In this document: positions 4,416 through 40,121 of the stretch, piece after piece
Layout of the letters: every line of letters begins with the position of its first letter
Position numbering within the stretch: position 1 is the first letter of the stretch
Source: a virus
Length of the DNA: 50,972 nt
Virus record (IMG/VR): IMGVR_UViG_3300036859_000587
Coordinates: 1 to 50,972 of that record
Direction: 5' to 3' (one strand)
The notes under the pieces: generated by a model
Told to the model about the DNA's origin: nothing
Seen by the model: only the letters and a program-made list of their open reading frames with translations
Database searches by the model: none
Translations under genes and position numbers: made by a program

Positions 4416-5479
4416 CCGCCACCACCGACCATCAGCTGGTCACCCCCACCGCGTACGTCGTGTCCACCGCCGCGCACCGCACCCCCGAATGGCACGCCGC
4501 CCGGGCCGCCGGCATCGGCGGCTCGGAGATCGTCACCATCCTCGGCCTGTCGAAGTACGACTCCCCCACCTCGCTGTGGCTGGAGAAGACCGGGCAGATC
4601 CCGCCCGAACCCGCGGGCGAGCAGGCCGAGATGGGGCTGCGGCTCGAACCGGTGCTGCGGCAGCTGTTCATCGACCGCACCGGCATCGCGGTGTGGACAC
4701 CACCCGGCACCCTGGCCCGGGCCGACGCGGACTGGCAGCGGGTCAACCTGGACGCGCTCACCGCCGACGACGGGGTGCTCGAGTTGAAGGCCCCGGGGCT
4801 GCGGATGGCCCCGGAGTGGACCGATGAGGACACCGAGGTCGGGCCCGGGGGGCAGATCCTCGGCGAGGGCGGCGTCCCGGTGCACGCCCTGGTGCAGGTG
4901 CTGTGGGGGCTGCACGTCACCGGCTACGACCACGGCTACATCGGCTGTCTGCTCGGCGGTCAGGAGTTCCGCTGGAGGAAGATCGACCGGGACCAGGAGC
5001 TCATCGACCTGATCGTGGCCCGCGCCGACGCGTTCTGGGCCCACGTCGTGGACGGCACCCCGCCGCCGATGGACGGCCATGCCGCCACCGCGTCGGCGCT
5101 GGGCCGGCTCTTCGACGCTGTCGATGACCGCACCGAGGTCCTGGATCCGGATGAGGTCACCCCGCTGCTGAAGGAGTACACGGCCCGCAAGCACATCGCC
5201 GCCGAGGCCGAGGCCGCGCTCGGTGAGATCGAGAACAAGCTGCGGGCGCTGCTCGGCGACGCCGAAATCGGAGTGCTGGACGGCCGCAAGGTCGTCACCT
5301 GGAAGCAGAACGGCACCTTCGCCGCCAAGCGGTTCCAGGCCGAGCACCCCGACGCCTACACCCGCTACCTCACCACCCGGCCCGCCGTCGATACCAAGCG
5401 GCTCGCAGCCGAAGACCCCGCCCTGTACCGCGCTTTCCGTGCCCGCGTGCTGCGCGTGTCCGGCGCCCCCAAGGAGTAA
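4412..5479 (+). CDS. YqaJ-family phage recombination exonuclease
   Basis: 355 residues. The YqaJ/lambda-Exo signature is clear: GIGGSEIVTILGLSKYDSP near residues 35-55, a conserved Glu in the following helix, and the D...ExK core in VNLDALTADDGVLELKAPG (about 110-130). A coiled-coil-like segment and a C-terminal region follow. Such nucleases degrade the 5' strand of double-strand ends to leave a 3' tail for the annealing protein. The partner RecT gene begins 3 bp after its stop, forming a RecE/RecT-like pair. Start ATG 4412 overlaps the upstream stop. Confidence 0.9.
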   Translation: MTATTDHQLVTPTAYVVSTAAHRTPEWHAARAAGIGGSEIVTILGLSKYDSPTSLWLEKTGQIPPEPAGEQAEMGLRLEPVLRQLFIDRTGIAVWTPPGTLARADADWQRVNLDALTADDGVLELKAPGLRMAPEWTDEDTEVGPGGQILGEGGVPVHALVQVLWGLHVTGYDHGYIGCLLGGQEFRWRKIDRDQELIDLIVARADAFWAHVVDGTPPPMDGHAATASALGRLFDAVDDRTEVLDPDEVTPLLKEYTARKHIAAEAEAALGEIENKLRALLGDAEIGVLDGRKVVTWKQNGTFAAKRFQAEHPDAYTRYLTTRPAVDTKRLAAEDPALYRAFRARVLRVSGAPKE

Positions 5480-5482
5480 GCC

Positions 5483-6457
5483 ATGGCGTCCACCCGCACC
5501 GTGAAGAACCAGCTCGCCACCCAGGAGCAGGCCGCCGGCCCCAACGGGCAGGTCGCCGAGCGCAGCGAGTTCGCCAAGGTCAACGACTGGCTGGAGCTGC
5601 TCAAGCCGGAGATCGCCCGCGCGCTGCCCGACCACCTGAAGCCGGATCGGCTGGCCCGGCTGATCCTCAACGACGTCCGCAAGATCCCGCTGCTGGCCCG
5701 CTGCACCCCGGAATCGTTCGGCGGGGCGATCATGACGTGCGCGCAGCTGGGGCTCGAGCCGGGCGCCGCCACCGGTGAGGCGTACCTGCTGCCGTTCAAG
5801 AACACCGATCGGGACACGGGCCGCGTCTTTTACGAGGTACAGCTGATCGTCGGCTACCAGGGCATGGCCAAGCTGTTCTGGCAGTCCCCGATGGCCCGGT
5901 CGCTGGACGCGCAGGCGGTGTACCCGGAGGACGAGTTCGACTACGAGTACGGGCTGACCCCGGTGCTGCGGCACCGCCCGTCGCTGGACCGCGCCGCCGA
6001 TTCCACCCCGTACGCCTATTACGCGGTCGCCACGACGACCACCGGCGGGTCGGCGTTCGTGGTGATGTCCCGCCGAGACGTGGAGCAATACCGGCGCCGG
6101 TCCAAGTCGCCGAACAAGGGCCCGTGGGTCAGCGACTACGACGCGATGGCGAAGAAGACTTGCCTGCGGCGGCTGTTCAAGCTGATGCCCAAGTCGCCGG
6201 TCCTGGCCGCGGCGCTCGCCCACGACGGCACGGTGCGAACCGACCGGGCCCCCGACGCGCTGGAAACCGCGCCGGCCTACCTGGAGGGCGAGATCGTCCG
6301 CAACGGCAACGGCGGCGGGCACGCCCCGGCCGGGGTCGACGAGACCACCGGGGAGGTCACCGACCCGGCCGTCCTGGCCGAGGCAGGGAACGACGGCGAG
6401 CCGGACTGGGAGGCGATCGACGCCGCCCGCGAAGCCGAGGAAGAGACGCAGTCGTGA
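5483..6457 (+). CDS. recT: RecT-family single-strand annealing protein
   Basis: 324 residues. Conserved RecT features: LARLILNDVRKIPLLARCTPESFGG, then AQLGLEPGAATGEAYLLPF, QLIVGYQGMAKL and the later segment WVSDYDAMAKKTCLRRLFK. An acidic, low-complexity C-terminus follows. RecT proteins coat 3' tails made by the partner exonuclease and anneal them to complementary DNA. It follows the YqaJ gene by 3 bp and overlaps the next gene by GTGA. A role in recombination-dependent repair or circularisation is inferred from the family. Confidence 0.93.
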   Translation: MASTRTVKNQLATQEQAAGPNGQVAERSEFAKVNDWLELLKPEIARALPDHLKPDRLARLILNDVRKIPLLARCTPESFGGAIMTCAQLGLEPGAATGEAYLLPFKNTDRDTGRVFYEVQLIVGYQGMAKLFWQSPMARSLDAQAVYPEDEFDYEYGLTPVLRHRPSLDRAADSTPYAYYAVATTTTGGSAFVVMSRRDVEQYRRRSKSPNKGPWVSDYDAMAKKTCLRRLFKLMPKSPVLAAALAHDGTVRTDRAPDALETAPAYLEGEIVRNGNGGGHAPAGVDETTGEVTDPAVLAEAGNDGEPDWEAIDAAREAEEETQS

Positions 6458-34033: not shown

Positions 34034-35800
34034 GTGGATGAGCTGCTCAACATTCCCGCAGACCTGACCCTTCTCTCCGACCAGGAGCTCGCCGCGCTCT
34101 CCGAGCAGGCGCACGCGGAGTTCGAGCGCGTCAACACCGCCGAGGAGGTGACCGCCGAAACCCTCGAGCGCCTGATGGCGCTGGAGACCGACCTCGACCG
34201 GCTGCAGGCCGAGACCTCCGGCCGGGCCGAGAAGGCCCGGGTGGCCGCCGAACGGGAAAAGGCCAAGCTGACCGAGGCCCGGGACCGGATCGCCGCCCGG
34301 GTGAACGGTCCCACCGCGACCGCGGTCGAAGGCGAAGTTGTGTTGGAGGCCCAGGCCGCCGTGGATCCGGAGGCCATCGCCGCGGCCGCTGCCCGCGGCA
34401 CCGTCTCCGCGCTGGTCTCGGTGCTCGGCGAACGTGGCGGGATGGACCTGGCCCGGATCTCCGAGCGCGCCACCGCCTCGCTGGCGCAGACCCGCGCCCA
34501 CGCGCCGGCCCCCTCGCTGCCGAAGGCCCGGCTCTCGGTCACCGCCGGCGTGGACATCCCCGGGCTGGCCAACGGGCAGGACCTGACCAGCCTGGACGCG
34601 ATGGTGGAGGCCTTCCACAAGCGGGCCCGCGGCCTGCCGGTCGCCAACGTCGGGCTGGCCGACGGCGGCCCGGTGGTCGCCACCATCCGCAACACCTTCG
34701 AGCACACCATCGACGACCGGACCAGCCCGGGGCAGATCGACGAGCTGCTGCGCTACCTGGTGGCCGAGGACAAGAAGGAAGCCCTGGTCGCCGGCGGCGG
34801 CTGGTGCGCCCCGTCGGAGGTGCGGTACGACTTCTTCAACATCGCCTGCGAGGCCGGGCTGGTCGACCTGCCCACCTTCGGTGTGAGCCGGGGCGGCATC
34901 CGCTACCCGGTGTCCCCGTCCCTGGCCGACACCACGCCCTCGGGGGTGTTCGGCGGCTTCTCCACCACGTTCGCGAACAGCTCCAACCCGTGGCTGTGGA
35001 CCGAGTCCGACGACGAGTTGACGGTCACCGGTTCGACCAACAAGCCGTGCGTGCGGATCCCCTGCCCGACCTTCGATGAGCGGCGGCTGGAGTGCTACGG
35101 CATCTGCCTGACCGCGGGCAACCTCACCGACTCCGCCTATCCCGAGGCGACGGCGAACTTCCTGCGGCTGCTGATGGCCGCGCACGCGCACGCCATGAAC
35201 GGCCGGATCATCGCCACCATGGCCACGCTTTCCTCGGCCGCGGTCACCGGCGGCGAATTCGCCGCCGCCGGCACCCCGGTCTACAACCAGTTCTTCGGCG
35301 GCGTCGGGCTGGCCGCCACCGATTACCGGGCCCGCTATGGCATGTGCGACGACGACGTCCTCGAGGTCGTCGCGCCGTACTGGCTGAAGGCCACGATCCG
35401 CGCCGACATCGCGCACCGCACCGGCATCGCGCCGGACCAGGTACCCGACTCGGCGATCAACGGCCAGCTCGCCGCGCTGAACGTGCGGGTCCAGTGGGTC
35501 AACGACTGGCAGGTGCGCGGCGCCAGCCAGTTCGGCAACGCCACCGCGATGACCGCATGGCCGACCACCGCCACGTTCATGATCTACGCGGCGGGGACGT
35601 TCCTGCTCGGCAACGGCCTGACCCTGGACCTGGGCGTGGTCCGCGACTCGGTGCTGAACGCCGAGAACGACCACACCGCCGCCTGGTCCGAGGAATGCCA
35701 CCTGGTCGCCAAGGTCGGGCACGAGTCGCGGCAGTACACGATCGTGTTCGAAGTCAACGGCACCACCGGCGCCGCGGACATCAGCGACGCCAGCCTCTGA
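34034..35800 (+). CDS. Major capsid protein with N-terminal scaffolding region
   Basis: 588 residues from GTG 34034. The first about 165 residues are charged and coiled-coil-like (TAEEVTAETLERLMALETDL, then an Ala/Glu/Arg-rich stretch), the delta-domain scaffold expected to be removed by the protease fused in the upstream gene. The rest is an HK97-fold shell protein: FFNIACEAGLVDLPTFGVSR, GIRYPVSPSLADTTPSGVF, RRLECYGICLTAGNLTDSAY, NDWQVRGASQFGN, TFMIYAAGTFLLGNGLTLDL. This pattern is common in actinophage capsid genes. Confidence 0.87.
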   Translation: MDELLNIPADLTLLSDQELAALSEQAHAEFERVNTAEEVTAETLERLMALETDLDRLQAETSGRAEKARVAAEREKAKLTEARDRIAARVNGPTATAVEGEVVLEAQAAVDPEAIAAAAARGTVSALVSVLGERGGMDLARISERATASLAQTRAHAPAPSLPKARLSVTAGVDIPGLANGQDLTSLDAMVEAFHKRARGLPVANVGLADGGPVVATIRNTFEHTIDDRTSPGQIDELLRYLVAEDKKEALVAGGGWCAPSEVRYDFFNIACEAGLVDLPTFGVSRGGIRYPVSPSLADTTPSGVFGGFSTTFANSSNPWLWTESDDELTVTGSTNKPCVRIPCPTFDERRLECYGICLTAGNLTDSAYPEATANFLRLLMAAHAHAMNGRIIATMATLSSAAVTGGEFAAAGTPVYNQFFGGVGLAATDYRARYGMCDDDVLEVVAPYWLKATIRADIAHRTGIAPDQVPDSAINGQLAALNVRVQWVNDWQVRGASQFGNATAMTAWPTTATFMIYAAGTFLLGNGLTLDLGVVRDSVLNAENDHTAAWSEECHLVAKVGHESRQYTIVFEVNGTTGAADISDASL

Positions 35801-36757: not shown

Positions 36758-37432
36758 ATGACGGCAGCGATCTGCGCGTCGCCCATCAAGGGCACGCATC
36801 TGCGGCTGGTGAAGGTCGACGCCTGCGGGGTGCCGGTCACCGGCGCCTCCGGGCTGGTGGTGGTCACCAAGGGTTTCATCCAGGTGACGATGTCGCCGCA
36901 ATACGAGGACGGCGAGGAATTCTTCGAGCGCACCGCCGACGGCACCGCCTGCGTGAACGAGAAGGACGACCCGACGCTGAAGCGGCTCGAGCTGGGGGTG
37001 CAGTTCTGCGAGGTCAACCCGCTGGCCGCCTCCTACGTGCTCTCGGCCCGGGACATCACCTCCGGCGCCCCGGCCACCGGCTACGGTTTCGCGTTGGCCG
37101 AAGGCCAGCCCACCAACCGGTTCTCCATCGAGGTGTGGCAGAAGGTCGCCGGTTCCGGGGCCTGCGACCCGTCCGGGGTGCAGCGCTACATCTACAACGC
37201 CTGGCCGAACGTGGGCGCGGTGCAGCTGCAGGACTACGTGGTGGAGAACGGCACGTCCACGCTGGAGTTCAACTCGGAGACCTCCGGCGCCTCGACGTTG
37301 TGGGGTGACGGCCCGGGCGCGGGCACGTCCTGGTTGCCGGCCGGTTTCGCGGTCGAAGCCGACGAGCATTGGCTGTGGTCGATCACCACCGTCGCGCCGC
37401 CGACCGAGGCGTGTTCCACCGGGACCTTGTGA
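36758..37432 (+). CDS. Major tail protein
   Basis: 224 residues. IKGTHLRLVKVDACGVPV, the segment SPQYEDGEEFFERTADGTAC, VNEKDDPTLKRLELGVQFCE and NRFSIEVWQKVAGSGACDPS form the pattern of actinophage major tail proteins that stack as tail-tube rings. It lies before the fibre cassette, far upstream of the tail chaperones, an unusual place. Ribosome-binding site GGAGAG is about 9 nt before the ATG. Confidence 0.8.
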   Translation: MTAAICASPIKGTHLRLVKVDACGVPVTGASGLVVVTKGFIQVTMSPQYEDGEEFFERTADGTACVNEKDDPTLKRLELGVQFCEVNPLAASYVLSARDITSGAPATGYGFALAEGQPTNRFSIEVWQKVAGSGACDPSGVQRYIYNAWPNVGAVQLQDYVVENGTSTLEFNSETSGASTLWGDGPGAGTSWLPAGFAVEADEHWLWSITTVAPPTEACSTGTL

Positions 37433-37444
37433 GGAGCGTGACCC

Positions 37445-37717
37445 ATGGGCAAGAGCCTGATCATCCGGAAGAAGAGGGACGGGTCGGTCAACATCGAGGG
37501 TGAGGCCCCGGATACCCAGACCTTCTCGGCCAGGTTCCTGCAACGGGAGCTTGGTGACCTGGTGGACGTGAGGATCATCCTCCACACCAGTGACGGGGAC
37601 ATGGAGTACCAGTTCCAGGGCTACGAGCCCATCGAGGGAGCCTTCGAGGACGAAGAGAAGACCATTCCCCGGCTCAACTTCACCGGCCTGGTCTGCACCA
37701 AGGTTGAGGGGAGCTGA
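37445..37717 (+). CDS. Small protein at the start of the fibre cassette
   Basis: 90 residues, beta-rich with a basic start (SLIIRKKRDGSVNIEGE) and LVDVRIILHTSDGDMEYQFQ. From here to about 43.9 kb the codons are less GC-saturated than in flanking genes. Not recognised. Confidence 0.65.
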   Translation: MGKSLIIRKKRDGSVNIEGEAPDTQTFSARFLQRELGDLVDVRIILHTSDGDMEYQFQGYEPIEGAFEDEEKTIPRLNFTGLVCTKVEGS

Positions 37718-37734
37718 GTCCGATTCCAGACATC

Positions 37735-38169
37735 GTGAACAACATCGCCCTGGGTGAGGTTAAGAAATACTGGAAGCTCGACGGTGGGGCCAACGACGCC
37801 ATCATCGTGGTTCCCTTCGAGACCACCGGCCTGGAGGCCGACGCCACCATCCGGGACTACGACAACCTGTCCCTGCTGCTGGCCGGGACCACCAACGAAC
37901 AGACCACGATGGGCCGGAAGACGGTGACCAGCCCGGTCATCACGGTGGACGACACCAACAACCGGGTGGACATCGACTGCGCCGACATCGTGTGGACCGG
38001 GGCCACCGGCAACGCCATCTCGGCTCTTCAGTTCGTCTACGACCCGGACACCACCGTGGGTACCGACGCCGATCTGATCCCGCTGCACCTCCATGCCTTC
38101 GTCATAACTCCAGACGGTTCGGATGTTACAGCAGTTATAGCTGCTGCTGGTATATTCCGAGCCCAGTAA
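37735..38169 (+). CDS. Structural (fibre-module) protein with a recoded C-terminus
   Basis: 144 residues from GTG 37735. The segments IVVPFETTGLEADATIRDYD, LLAGTTNEQTTMGRKT, IVWTGATGNAISALQFVYDP and ITPDGSDVTAVIAAAGIFRAQ form a pattern I recognise in a common phage structural family whose C-terminus is TPDGSD(I/V)TA...AG(F/I)FRA. From about 38104 to the stop the codons switch to A/T-ending (16 of 21 sense codons), while those just before are mostly G/C-ending. The last 17 codons are duplicated at 38849-38902. An HNH gene has inserted here. The true start may lie further upstream; no good ribosome-binding site is seen for GTG 37735. Confidence 0.8.
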   Translation: MNNIALGEVKKYWKLDGGANDAIIVVPFETTGLEADATIRDYDNLSLLLAGTTNEQTTMGRKTVTSPVITVDDTNNRVDIDCADIVWTGATGNAISALQFVYDPDTTVGTDADLIPLHLHAFVITPDGSDVTAVIAAAGIFRAQ

Positions 38170-38848
38170 GTCACCTTCGAACATGGGTGCGAGCCGAGTA
38201 TGAGTTATCCAAAAGTCGTGACATGATGACTGGGTGGAGCTGACCTGCATGATCTGCGGCACGGTCCTTGAACACACACGTCATGGTGGAGGTCCTGCTC
38301 CGGCGACGTGTGGGTCAGAGGATTGCCGGAAAAAGAAGCACGCTCAGGCTGCGGTGGAGTATCGCTGGCGCCAGCGGGGTGGATCGACCACCCAGGAACG
38401 AATCTGCCTGGAGTGTGGTGAGCCCTTCGAGTTCGTACGGACCCAGGGCACCATTGGGCGAGGGTCTGGGTTCTGTTCCGACGACTGCCGGGACAAGCGT
38501 CGCCGGGAGGGTGCTCGTAAGGCTACGTACGCGCACCGGGCTCGCCTGTCGGCCGAGGAACGATCCCGGCTACGTCGAAAGGCCCTGCTGGCTACTTTTG
38601 GGCTGACCCCAGAGCGTTATGGCGAGATGGTTGCTGCGCAGGACGGGGTATGCGCTATCTGCCATCGGCCCGACACCAAGCACCACAGCTCGTTGTTGAA
38701 GATCGACCATGACCGGTCCTGCTGCCCTGGACATGGGTCCTGTGGCAAGTGCGTACGGGGTCTGTTGTGTTCGGCTTGTAACACCGGGATCGGTCTGTTC
38801 GAGGATGACCTGGGACTCTTGCAGGCCGCTGCCGACTACCTGAGGTCT
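38104..38848 (+). mobile_element. HNH-endonuclease insertion carrying a recoded gene tail
   Basis: Inferred inserted segment: a recoded C-terminus of the upstream gene (38104-38169), a 64-bp A/T-richer spacer and the HNH gene up to its junction with the displaced original 3' end at 38849. Left and right copies share GGTTCGGA at the junctions (38116 and 38849). Boundaries are deduced from the duplication and are exact only to a few codons on the left. Confidence 0.75.
38116..38169 (+). repeat. Recoded copy of the 17-codon gene tail
   Basis: 54 bp including stop TAA; encodes GSDVTAVIAAAGIFRAQ. Compared with 38849-38902 it has 13 nucleotide differences but only one amino-acid difference (Ala versus Thr). 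Confidence 0.92.
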
Positions 38849-38902
38849 GGTTCGGACGTGACCGCAGTGATCGCCACGGCCGGGATCTTCCGGGCCCAGT
38901 AG
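38234..38902 (+). CDS. Endonuclease VII-like HNH homing endonuclease, C-terminally fused to the displaced gene tail
   Basis: 222 residues from GTG 38234. Two Cys-pair zinc fingers at the N-terminus (CMIC...CGSEDC, CLEC...FCSDDC), then an endonuclease VII-type domain: LLATFGLTPERYGEMVAAQD, CAICHRP, LKIDHDRSCC, CGKCVRGLLCSACNTGIGLF. The HNH/treble-clef His-Asp pair is in IDHD. The natural end of this family is near LLQAAADYL; here reading continues in frame through 17 codons (GSDVTAVIATAGIFRAQ) that are the original 3' end of the gene at 37735. The nuclease probably cuts the uninterrupted gene at that place and spreads the element. Confidence 0.9.
   Translation: MELTCMICGTVLEHTRHGGGPAPATCGSEDCRKKKHAQAAVEYRWRQRGGSTTQERICLECGEPFEFVRTQGTIGRGSGFCSDDCRDKRRREGARKATYAHRARLSAEERSRLRRKALLATFGLTPERYGEMVAAQDGVCAICHRPDTKHHSSLLKIDHDRSCCPGHGSCGKCVRGLLCSACNTGIGLFEDDLGLLQAAADYLRSGSDVTAVIATAGIFRAQ
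38849..38902 (+). repeat. Displaced original 3' end of the gene at 37735
   Basis: 54 bp with stop TAG in G/C-ending codons matching the surrounding structural genes, now forming the last 17 codons of the HNH gene. Confidence 0.9.
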
Positions 38903-38944
38903 GCAATTCTGCCCAACGACCCTTGGGGGGAGGAGTGAGAGGGG

Positions 38945-39295
38945 GTGCCGGAGATGTGGCACGCCGTCTACGACACCGTGACCGGGGAGCTGAAGTCACT
39001 GGGCCAGGTGGTGACCAGTCCCCTTCCGCTAGGGATGACCGATGCACCGCTCGGAGAAACCAAGCCAGCGGATACCCAGATGTGGGACGAGGTGACCCGG
39101 GCGTTCGTGGCCCGCCCGGTCAAGGTGCTGGTCGATCGGCTGGCCGACCTGCGGGCCGATGTGGACTTCCGGCTCACCTACGACACGCTGAACGCCACCC
39201 GGAAGGCCAACATCGACACCGGGGTGATCCGGCTGCTGGGTAACCGGAGGATGCGCTCGACCGGCGGGCCCGCAGCGCTGGATACGGGGACCTGA
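38945..39295 (+). CDS. Fibre-module protein of unknown function
   Basis: 116 residues from GTG 38945. Begins MWHAVYDTVTGELKSLGQVV, a motif like phage tail or fibre accessory proteins in which a short beta region is followed by helices (VKVLVDRLADLRADVDFRL). Preceded by GGGGGGAGGAG. Overlaps nothing; next gene starts 1 bp after its stop. Confidence 0.65.
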   Translation: MPEMWHAVYDTVTGELKSLGQVVTSPLPLGMTDAPLGETKPADTQMWDEVTRAFVARPVKVLVDRLADLRADVDFRLTYDTLNATRKANIDTGVIRLLGNRRMRSTGGPAALDTGT

Positions 39296-39296
39296 G

Positions 39297-40121
39297 ATGG
39301 CCGACTGGCCACTGATCGGTGGGGTGGTCCATGCCGCTGCCGGTGTGGTCGCAGGCTCGACGGATGGCACCACGGTTACCTCCTCGGCTACGGCCGACAC
39401 CAAGGGAGCCTGGGCCGAACTGTCGGCGTCGCTGCCGTTCGACGTGCAGAAGATCACCCTCCACTTCACCCAGACGACGGTGAACGTCAACACGTTCCTG
39501 CTCGACCTCGGGATTGGCACCGCCGGGTCGGAACAGGTGATCGTCCCAGACCTCATCTCCGGCCATGGCACCTCCGGGGCCATCTACCAGGTCGATCTGC
39601 CCGTTGCCATCCCGGTCGGGACGAGGCTGGCCGCGCGGGTGGCCAGCAGTGCCACGTCCGCCACGATGATCGTCGCCGTCCACCTGGAGGGGAAACAGGA
39701 CTGGATAGCACCACCGCCGTTCTCCACGGTCAGCGCCTACGGGGCGAACACCGCTGACAGTGGTGGGACCTCGGTCGATCCGGGAGGCACGGTCAACACG
39801 AAGGGTGCCTGGGTCGAACTCACCTCTTCGGTCGCTGGCCTGACCAGAGGTTTGTTGATCGGCATGGCTCACCAGAACAACAACACCGGTGCGGTGGCCA
39901 AGTGGTTGGTGGATGTCGGCATCGGGGCGGCGGGAGCGGAGCAGATCATCATCTCGGACCTGTGGGTGCGTGGCACCGGTACTCGGCTGTTCACCCCGAA
40001 TTACATGGGCCCGTACCCGGTCAACATCCCGGCCGGCACCAGGCTGGCCGTCCGAACACAATGCACGATCACCGACGCCTCCGACCGGCTGATCGACTTC
40101 GCTGCCTACGGGTTGGAGTGA
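39297..40121 (+). CDS. Two-domain internally duplicated fibre-module protein
   Basis: 274 residues made of two related halves (about 20-137 and 150-274). Both have TKGAWAELSAS or TKGAWVELTSS, then LDLGIGTAGSEQVIVPDL or VDVGIGAAGAEQIIISDL, then a PVAIPVGTRLAARV or PVNIPAGTRLAVRT segment. Mostly beta strands, as expected of receptor-binding or fibre-tip jelly-roll domains. No catalytic motif seen. Confidence 0.75.
   Translation: MADWPLIGGVVHAAAGVVAGSTDGTTVTSSATADTKGAWAELSASLPFDVQKITLHFTQTTVNVNTFLLDLGIGTAGSEQVIVPDLISGHGTSGAIYQVDLPVAIPVGTRLAARVASSATSATMIVAVHLEGKQDWIAPPPFSTVSAYGANTADSGGTSVDPGGTVNTKGAWVELTSSVAGLTRGLLIGMAHQNNNTGAVAKWLVDVGIGAAGAEQIIISDLWVRGTGTRLFTPNYMGPYPVNIPAGTRLAVRTQCTITDASDRLIDFAAYGLE

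Follow-up and report, generated by a model that had tools for sequence, protein, structure and literature searches.

Homing nucleases usually spare genes by residing in introns, inteins or intergenic gaps. The seg and mob enzymes of phage T4 are intergenic and cut hundreds to thousands of base pairs away, or split genes when misplaced, as with mobE/nrdA (PMC2988022). The case of F-CphI shows that the catalytic fold of Endo VII can serve homing, and the histidine corresponding to H43 of the T4 enzyme occurs in the majority of Endo VII-motif proteins but is missing from some (PMC6083498). In fungal mitochondria, mobile ORFs with replacement C-termini were described in atp6 of Allomyces and in atp6, atp9, cox2 and nad3 of Glomus sp.; these C-termini differ from the native ones mainly in DNA, the Glomus atp6 copies sharing 63.5% of their nucleotides and 91% of their amino acids (PMC3630166). 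In the synthetic HomeR drive, a re-coded 3′ end serves to restore PolG2 (PMC7968924). The fungal mobile ORFs and the HomeR drives are, by analogy, the systems which best match the locus reported here.

The locus belongs to the IMG/VR virus record IMGVR_UViG_3300036859_000587, of which positions 1 to 50,972 were analysed (50,972 bases, hereafter the window). Its features are listed in Table 1. The model obtained for the target protein was of poor quality and gave no PDB match. The best-conserved part of this protein is TPDGSD, with T-DGSD invariant in an alignment of 10 sequences.

Table 1. Position of the nuclease gene, the target gene and its two 3′ ends in the window
Feature	Position	Strand	Evidence or remark
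Major head protein	34034-35800		phrog_777
Major tail protein	36758-37432		phrog_792
Target gene, whole	37735-38169	+	phrog_26662, function unknown, in phage structural module
Target gene, native 5′ part	37735-38103	+	PHROG match 3e-48; 113 homologues; body GC3 0.91
Recoded, protein-restoring 3′ end of the target gene	38104-38169	+	Codon-aligned GC3 profile; 5/21 codons G/C-ending, P = 2e-13
Inferred insertion point, TPDGS-D codons	38113-38124	+	Native sequence continues from G128 (window) and from the D130 equivalent (L058)
Element-borne intergenic stretch, restored stop to nuclease start	38170-38233	+	64 nt; L057, L058 and L144 have 22-31 nt
Nuclease proper	38234-38848	+	PF02945 5e-19; T4 Endo VII chain 1e7d 2e-4; four-protein alignment
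Displaced native target 3′ end, in-frame fusion to the nuclease	38849-38902	+	41/54 nt and 16/17 residues as in 38116-38169; GC3 0.89
Nuclease ORF including the fused tail	38234-38902	+	Ends with the target-derived stop codon

Two versions of the 3′ end of the target gene are present in the window. The upstream copy starts from 38116 with GGT TCG GAT GTT and terminates with TAA at 38169, and the downstream copy starts from 38849 with GGT TCG GAC GTG and terminates with TAG at 38902. Out of 17 sense codons compared, ten differed synonymously, six were identical and a single one was missense (GCT Ala versus ACG Thr), leaving 41 identical nucleotides out of 54. The duplicated peptide scored 75, whereas 300 shuffles never exceeded 37. 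From position 38104, 16 of the 21 codons ended in A or T, in a gene whose body showed a GC3 of 0.91 (binomial P = 2e-13). The recoding peaked at 38122-38148 (GAT GTT ACA GCA GTT ATA GCT GCT GCT). The displaced copy had a GC3 of 0.89, similar to that of the neighbouring genes (0.84-0.95), and joining the two flanks produced an uninterrupted gene with the end TPDGSDVTAVIATAGIFRAQ. The original prediction, made from the letters of the window alone, had reported the same sequences, the same counts of codons and the opposition between an A/T-ending upstream copy and a downstream copy of native style; all were reproduced, the counts exactly.

That prediction further described the downstream gene as an HNH gene ending in the tail copy. 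The tail copy is indeed located there, and the rest of the description was refined: the Pfam profile scan identified an Endo VII domain (PF02945, 5e-19, cut-off passed), the coding part of the nuclease itself stops near 38848, and the 17 codons after it belong to the target gene. This 17-residue tail is not part of the enzyme, because the nucleases of relatives stop where it begins. Matches in the PDB were T4 Endo VII (1e7d, 2e-4) and Hpy99I (4e-3). Two Cys4 modules (C5/C8/C26/C31 and C58/C61/C81/C85) are followed by a C-terminal catalytic domain at residues 119-204. The residues D40, H41, R54 and N62 of T4 Endo VII and its two CxxC pairs correspond to D158, H159, R175, N183, C140/C143 and C179/C182, which were invariant in the four nucleases compared. 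At the position of H43, all four possess an arginine (R161, window 38714-38716), giving DHDR instead of DHDH. From these sequence features, the nuclease is assigned to the Endo VII fold family; strict DHHRN membership is not claimed because this second histidine is absent. The arginine could reduce or alter the nuclease activity, for which there are no cleavage data. In the structure model, the N-terminal modules were fairly confident and formed repeated strand-helix units, and the catalytic part was poor.

Three other interpretations of the nuclease gene were rejected. A Holliday junction resolvase of the T4 type needs an N-terminal Endo VII plus dimerisation domain, whereas here the catalytic domain is C-terminal, after the Cys4 modules. 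The upstream ORF ends with its own stop, and neither a group I intron (no Rfam match in 37400-39400) nor an intein (no intein domain in the Pfam scan) was detected.

Three additional loci, found by searching for the nuclease and not for the tail, carry the same nuclease family directly 3′ of a phrog_26662 gene. L057 and L058 are viral contigs, and L144 is a prophage-like region of the Dactylosporangium roseum chromosome (NZ_CP073721.1), where it adjoins phage head genes. The four nucleases were 50-59% identical, and a full-length target protein was kept in all four loci. Scans of viral contigs and genomes for the nuclease gave no members beyond these three, and the 355 genomes of the D. roseum family contained distant Endo VII only. 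The change in the proportion of G/C-ending codons from body to tail was calculated for 113 distinct target homologues. The four nuclease-bearing genes occupied ranks 1-4, with shifts of -0.64, -0.45, -0.42 and -0.35, against a mean of -0.01 (sd 0.10) and a minimum of -0.28 in the 109 nuclease-free homologues. The probability that the three loci retrieved by the nuclease search alone occupy the three lowest ranks of 112 is 1/C(112,3) = 4e-6, with the reservation that elements of common descent do not count as independent. The recoded block corresponded approximately to codons 123-138 of the window gene. It starts at the TPDGSD codons and continues past them, was strongest at codons 130-137 (GAT xTW ACW GCA ... 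ATA GCT GCT) and had nearly vanished at codons 140-144. At D130, T132, A133, I135 and A137, 0% of the codons were G/C-ending in the element loci, compared to 67-89% elsewhere.

Two observations named in advance as capable of refuting the original prediction were not made. An A/T-ending 3′ end without the nuclease was looked for, and no comparable switch existed in the 109 nuclease-free homologues. A C-terminal tail proper to the nuclease family is excluded: the tail of the window begins at DYL, and the enzymes of L057, L058 and L144 terminate at most a few residues away from that point. The straight read-through anticipated in relatives was also encountered: nuclease-free homologues cross TPDGS-D in the native codon style, the nearest having only about 70% protein identity. 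A near-identical element-free allele of the phage of the window was not found in two target-gene scans of viral contigs (64-70% protein identity at best). A DNA scan for the recoded spelling gave matches outside these loci mostly in low-GC genomes, and no gene of the nuclease family followed them. At L122:2987-3511, another Endo VII ORF (41% identity) precedes a phrog_26662 gene instead of following it, and the tail of that gene has only a mild shift (-0.24).

A displaced native 3′ end was visible downstream of the nuclease in two of the four loci, the window and L058. In L058, GACATTACGGCCGACGT overlaps with the stop codon of the nuclease; translated in another frame, it gives DITADV in a G/C-rich spelling, the same residues as in the recoded tail of L058. 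This remnant (4418-4434) is only 17 bp long and is situated at the contig end. No recognisable native remnant was present behind the nuclease in L057 and L144. The very end of the L057 nuclease gene (5603-5624), where the native remnant would be expected, is formed by a perfect inverted repeat, GGAGAGGAC-CCGC-GTCCTCTCC.

The distribution of the nuclease was patchy, with 4 of the 113 target homologues concerned, at the same site in diverged genomes. The nuclease-bearing target genes did not constitute one clade (four changes on the 113-protein tree, AU p=0.0002), and the divergences of target and nuclease disagreed. L058 and L144 had the most similar targets (63%) and the least similar nucleases (50%), and the window differed from the other three more in its target (39-41% identity) than in its nuclease (56-58%). 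For these two reasons, we consider that the element has moved several times. The same codon was used for the same residue at 37 of 61 positions among the recoded tails, versus 137 of 399 in the comparison with A/T-rich element-free genes. Such shared choices beyond A/T richness imply that the tail probably travels with the nuclease. Joint movement of nuclease and tail between diverged phages is the simplest account.

We propose that the insertion is an intronless homing element, composed of a free-standing Endo VII-type nuclease gene and a copy, in a different spelling, of the final ~20 codons of the invaded gene, that it cuts element-free alleles, and that immunity is the reason for the recoding. 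We hold this explanation with good confidence. It agrees with the original prediction of a homing insertion whose recoded replacement 3′ end keeps the structural protein intact, and this reading gained support from the finding of the same architecture in three more loci. The architecture, its recurrence in four loci, the localised recoding, the displaced native ends in two of them and the discordant histories are direct observations, whereas cleavage, homing and the immunity of the recoded copy are inferred, in the absence of cleavage, co-infection or expression data. In this model, the nuclease would recognise about 30-45 bp at the conserved TPDGS-DxTA codons of phrog_26662 genes. Element-free alleles would be cut during co-infection, or superinfection of a lysogen, and repair from the element-bearing genome would insert the recoded tail, its stop and the nuclease gene at the TPDGS-D codons. 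The old 3′ end would be displaced behind the nuclease and would then decay or disappear, and the recoded tail would preserve the target protein. A plain restoration of the reading frame at the cut site would rebuild the recognition site, which the re-spelled tail should not. The re-spelling would also leave only short exact repeats for the recombination that deletes the element. The cut site has probably been destroyed, again an inference without cleavage data. As the recoded block maps the likely recognition site of the nuclease, the idea is testable at once.

It is possible, but in our opinion rather unlikely, that the tail is foreign. The element would have come from or via an A/T-rich phage, the target 3′ end being co-converted, and the codon difference would reflect the composition of the donor and not an escape from cutting. 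Such phages do encode similar tails (L201, GAT ATT ACA GCA CAA ATT GCT GCT GCT GGT TTC TAC AGG GCG CAG), the GC3 of the nuclease gene (0.68-0.79) is below that of most target bodies, and the fungal mobile ORFs have been attributed to horizontal transfer of a foreign tail (PMC3630166). However, the residues encoded by each tail are nearly those of the displaced end at the same locus (16 of 17 in the window, including GIFRAQ, and DITADV in L058), which a distant donor would not supply. In addition, the tail GC3 of 0.27 in the window and L057 is far below that of the accompanying nuclease genes (0.68 and 0.79, respectively), and codons 140-144 have returned to a near-native style. The constant A/T direction of the re-spelling is not explained by immunity alone, and an A/T-rich donor could contribute to it.

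The A/T richness of the block and its location directly 5′ of the nuclease might also point to a regulatory segment, a promoter or a translation coupling for the nuclease, overlapping the coding end. In all four loci, exactly 6 nt separate the end of a TANNNT-like, -10-like hexamer from the nuclease start (CATGAT, window 38222-38236; TAGAAT, L057 4989-5003; TACGAT, L058 3775-3789; TATCAT, L144 4989-5003). A hexamer at this distance from the start codon would fit a leaderless transcript. This explanation nevertheless seems improbable to us, since the hexamer falls outside the recoded block, no sigma-70-like site was found in 37900-39100, and promoter and terminator scans around the locus were negative. 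Moreover, the position of the block is constant in the target gene (codons 124-138), whereas the spacing between block and nuclease start ranges from about 43 to 85 nt. The block thus follows the coordinates of the target, as a recognition site would, and not those of a nuclease promoter. The retention of a full-length duplicate in the window only could suggest a chance tandem duplication with drift, or an assembly artefact, beside an ordinary nuclease gene. We give this practically no credit, as it is already contradicted by the existence of four loci, each from an independent assembly and one lying on a complete bacterial chromosome. The strong codon shift was exclusive to nuclease-bearing loci, and drift would not be directed towards A/T with the protein conserved in the functional copy.

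The duplicated-tail test was run on about 40 other Endo VII loci and gave one further plausible case, in the Klebsiella phage Keithsmous (OR896854.1, L181:2323-3005). There, a distant Endo VII gene, whose product is 35% identical to the nuclease of the window, is found at the 3′ end of another target, the T7-like gene 0.6. As in the window, the functional tail, FKANKVGVFYIATH, is upstream of the Endo VII gene and a decayed native tail, FKTDKVGIFYSA (also given as FKTDKVGIFYSALTTT), is downstream. Closely related empty alleles of gene 0.6 exist in Koku (L185) and CT02 (L187); their upstream sequence is shared almost exactly as far as TTTAAGGCCAA, and the spelling diverges from there. T7-like phages with gene 0.6B and without the nuclease (L186:1698-1869 and L190:1183-1354) spell the 0.6A tail as the nuclease-bearing phages do, which makes the history of the Keithsmous case less clear. 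In phages devoid of both 0.6B and the nuclease, the 0.6A tail is spelled differently from one point on. Gene 0.6B and the nuclease may be inserts that take each other's place. Another duplicated-tail match, at L170:1414-1962, was discarded: the Endo VII ORF is flanked on both sides by tRNA-gene-like translations (VAQRPE...GSNP), possibly a tRNA duplication.

No phage precedent for a recoded, gene-restoring homing element was found in the open-access papers searched, subscription literature not being covered. The general kind is already known; the novelty lies in an intronless homing element of phages that is based on Endo VII and rebuilds its target gene with a recoded 3′ end. A broader hypothesis, which we judge to have an even chance of being correct, is that a natural home-and-rescue drive operates in dsDNA phages. 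The tail would be a co-evolved, element-borne module of immunity plus rescue, kept by selection synonymous to each host protein yet uncuttable, and the strategy would have had more than one origin among Endo VII nucleases, in phrog_26662 of high-GC phages and in gene 0.6 of T7-like phages. If true, this would represent a general, unrecognised route for nucleases into indispensable phage coding sequence. By invading a coding sequence and compensating through a re-spelled rebuild of the gene, the phage element would follow the design that gene-drive engineers chose for essential genes, and it would constitute a natural record of drive evolution, remnant loss and crossing between diverged phages.

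The phage element resembles the T4 seg and mob genes in being free-standing, patchy and without intron, and the spread by break repair shown for T4 is presumed here (PMC2988022). Unlike them, it enters a gene and restores it with a recoded end. With F-CphI and the DHHRN homing endonucleases, it shares a phage-borne, free-standing nature, a C-terminal Endo VII domain, the zinc cysteines and the residues D40, H41, R54 and N62 (PMC6083498). It differs from them in the arginine at H43, in the two N-terminal Cys4 modules and in the position of the gene inside its presumed target, with a rescue tail. Like HomeR, it is inserted at a coding cut site near the 3′ end of the gene, the re-coded end of HomeR being cut-resistant (PMC7968924), but HomeR is an engineered Cas9/gRNA system in Drosophila, whereas the present element is natural, relies on a protein nuclease and resides in phages. 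As in the fungal mobile ORFs, a nuclease ORF and a replacement 3′ end lie inside a coding gene, with the native 3′ end downstream and the protein nearly unchanged (PMC3630166). The fungal elements are mitochondrial and of the LAGLIDADG or GIY-YIG type. Here, by contrast, dsDNA phages and an Endo VII-type nuclease are involved, the recoding affects only ~15 codons, located at the insertion point, and its link to the nuclease was tested over 113 homologues.
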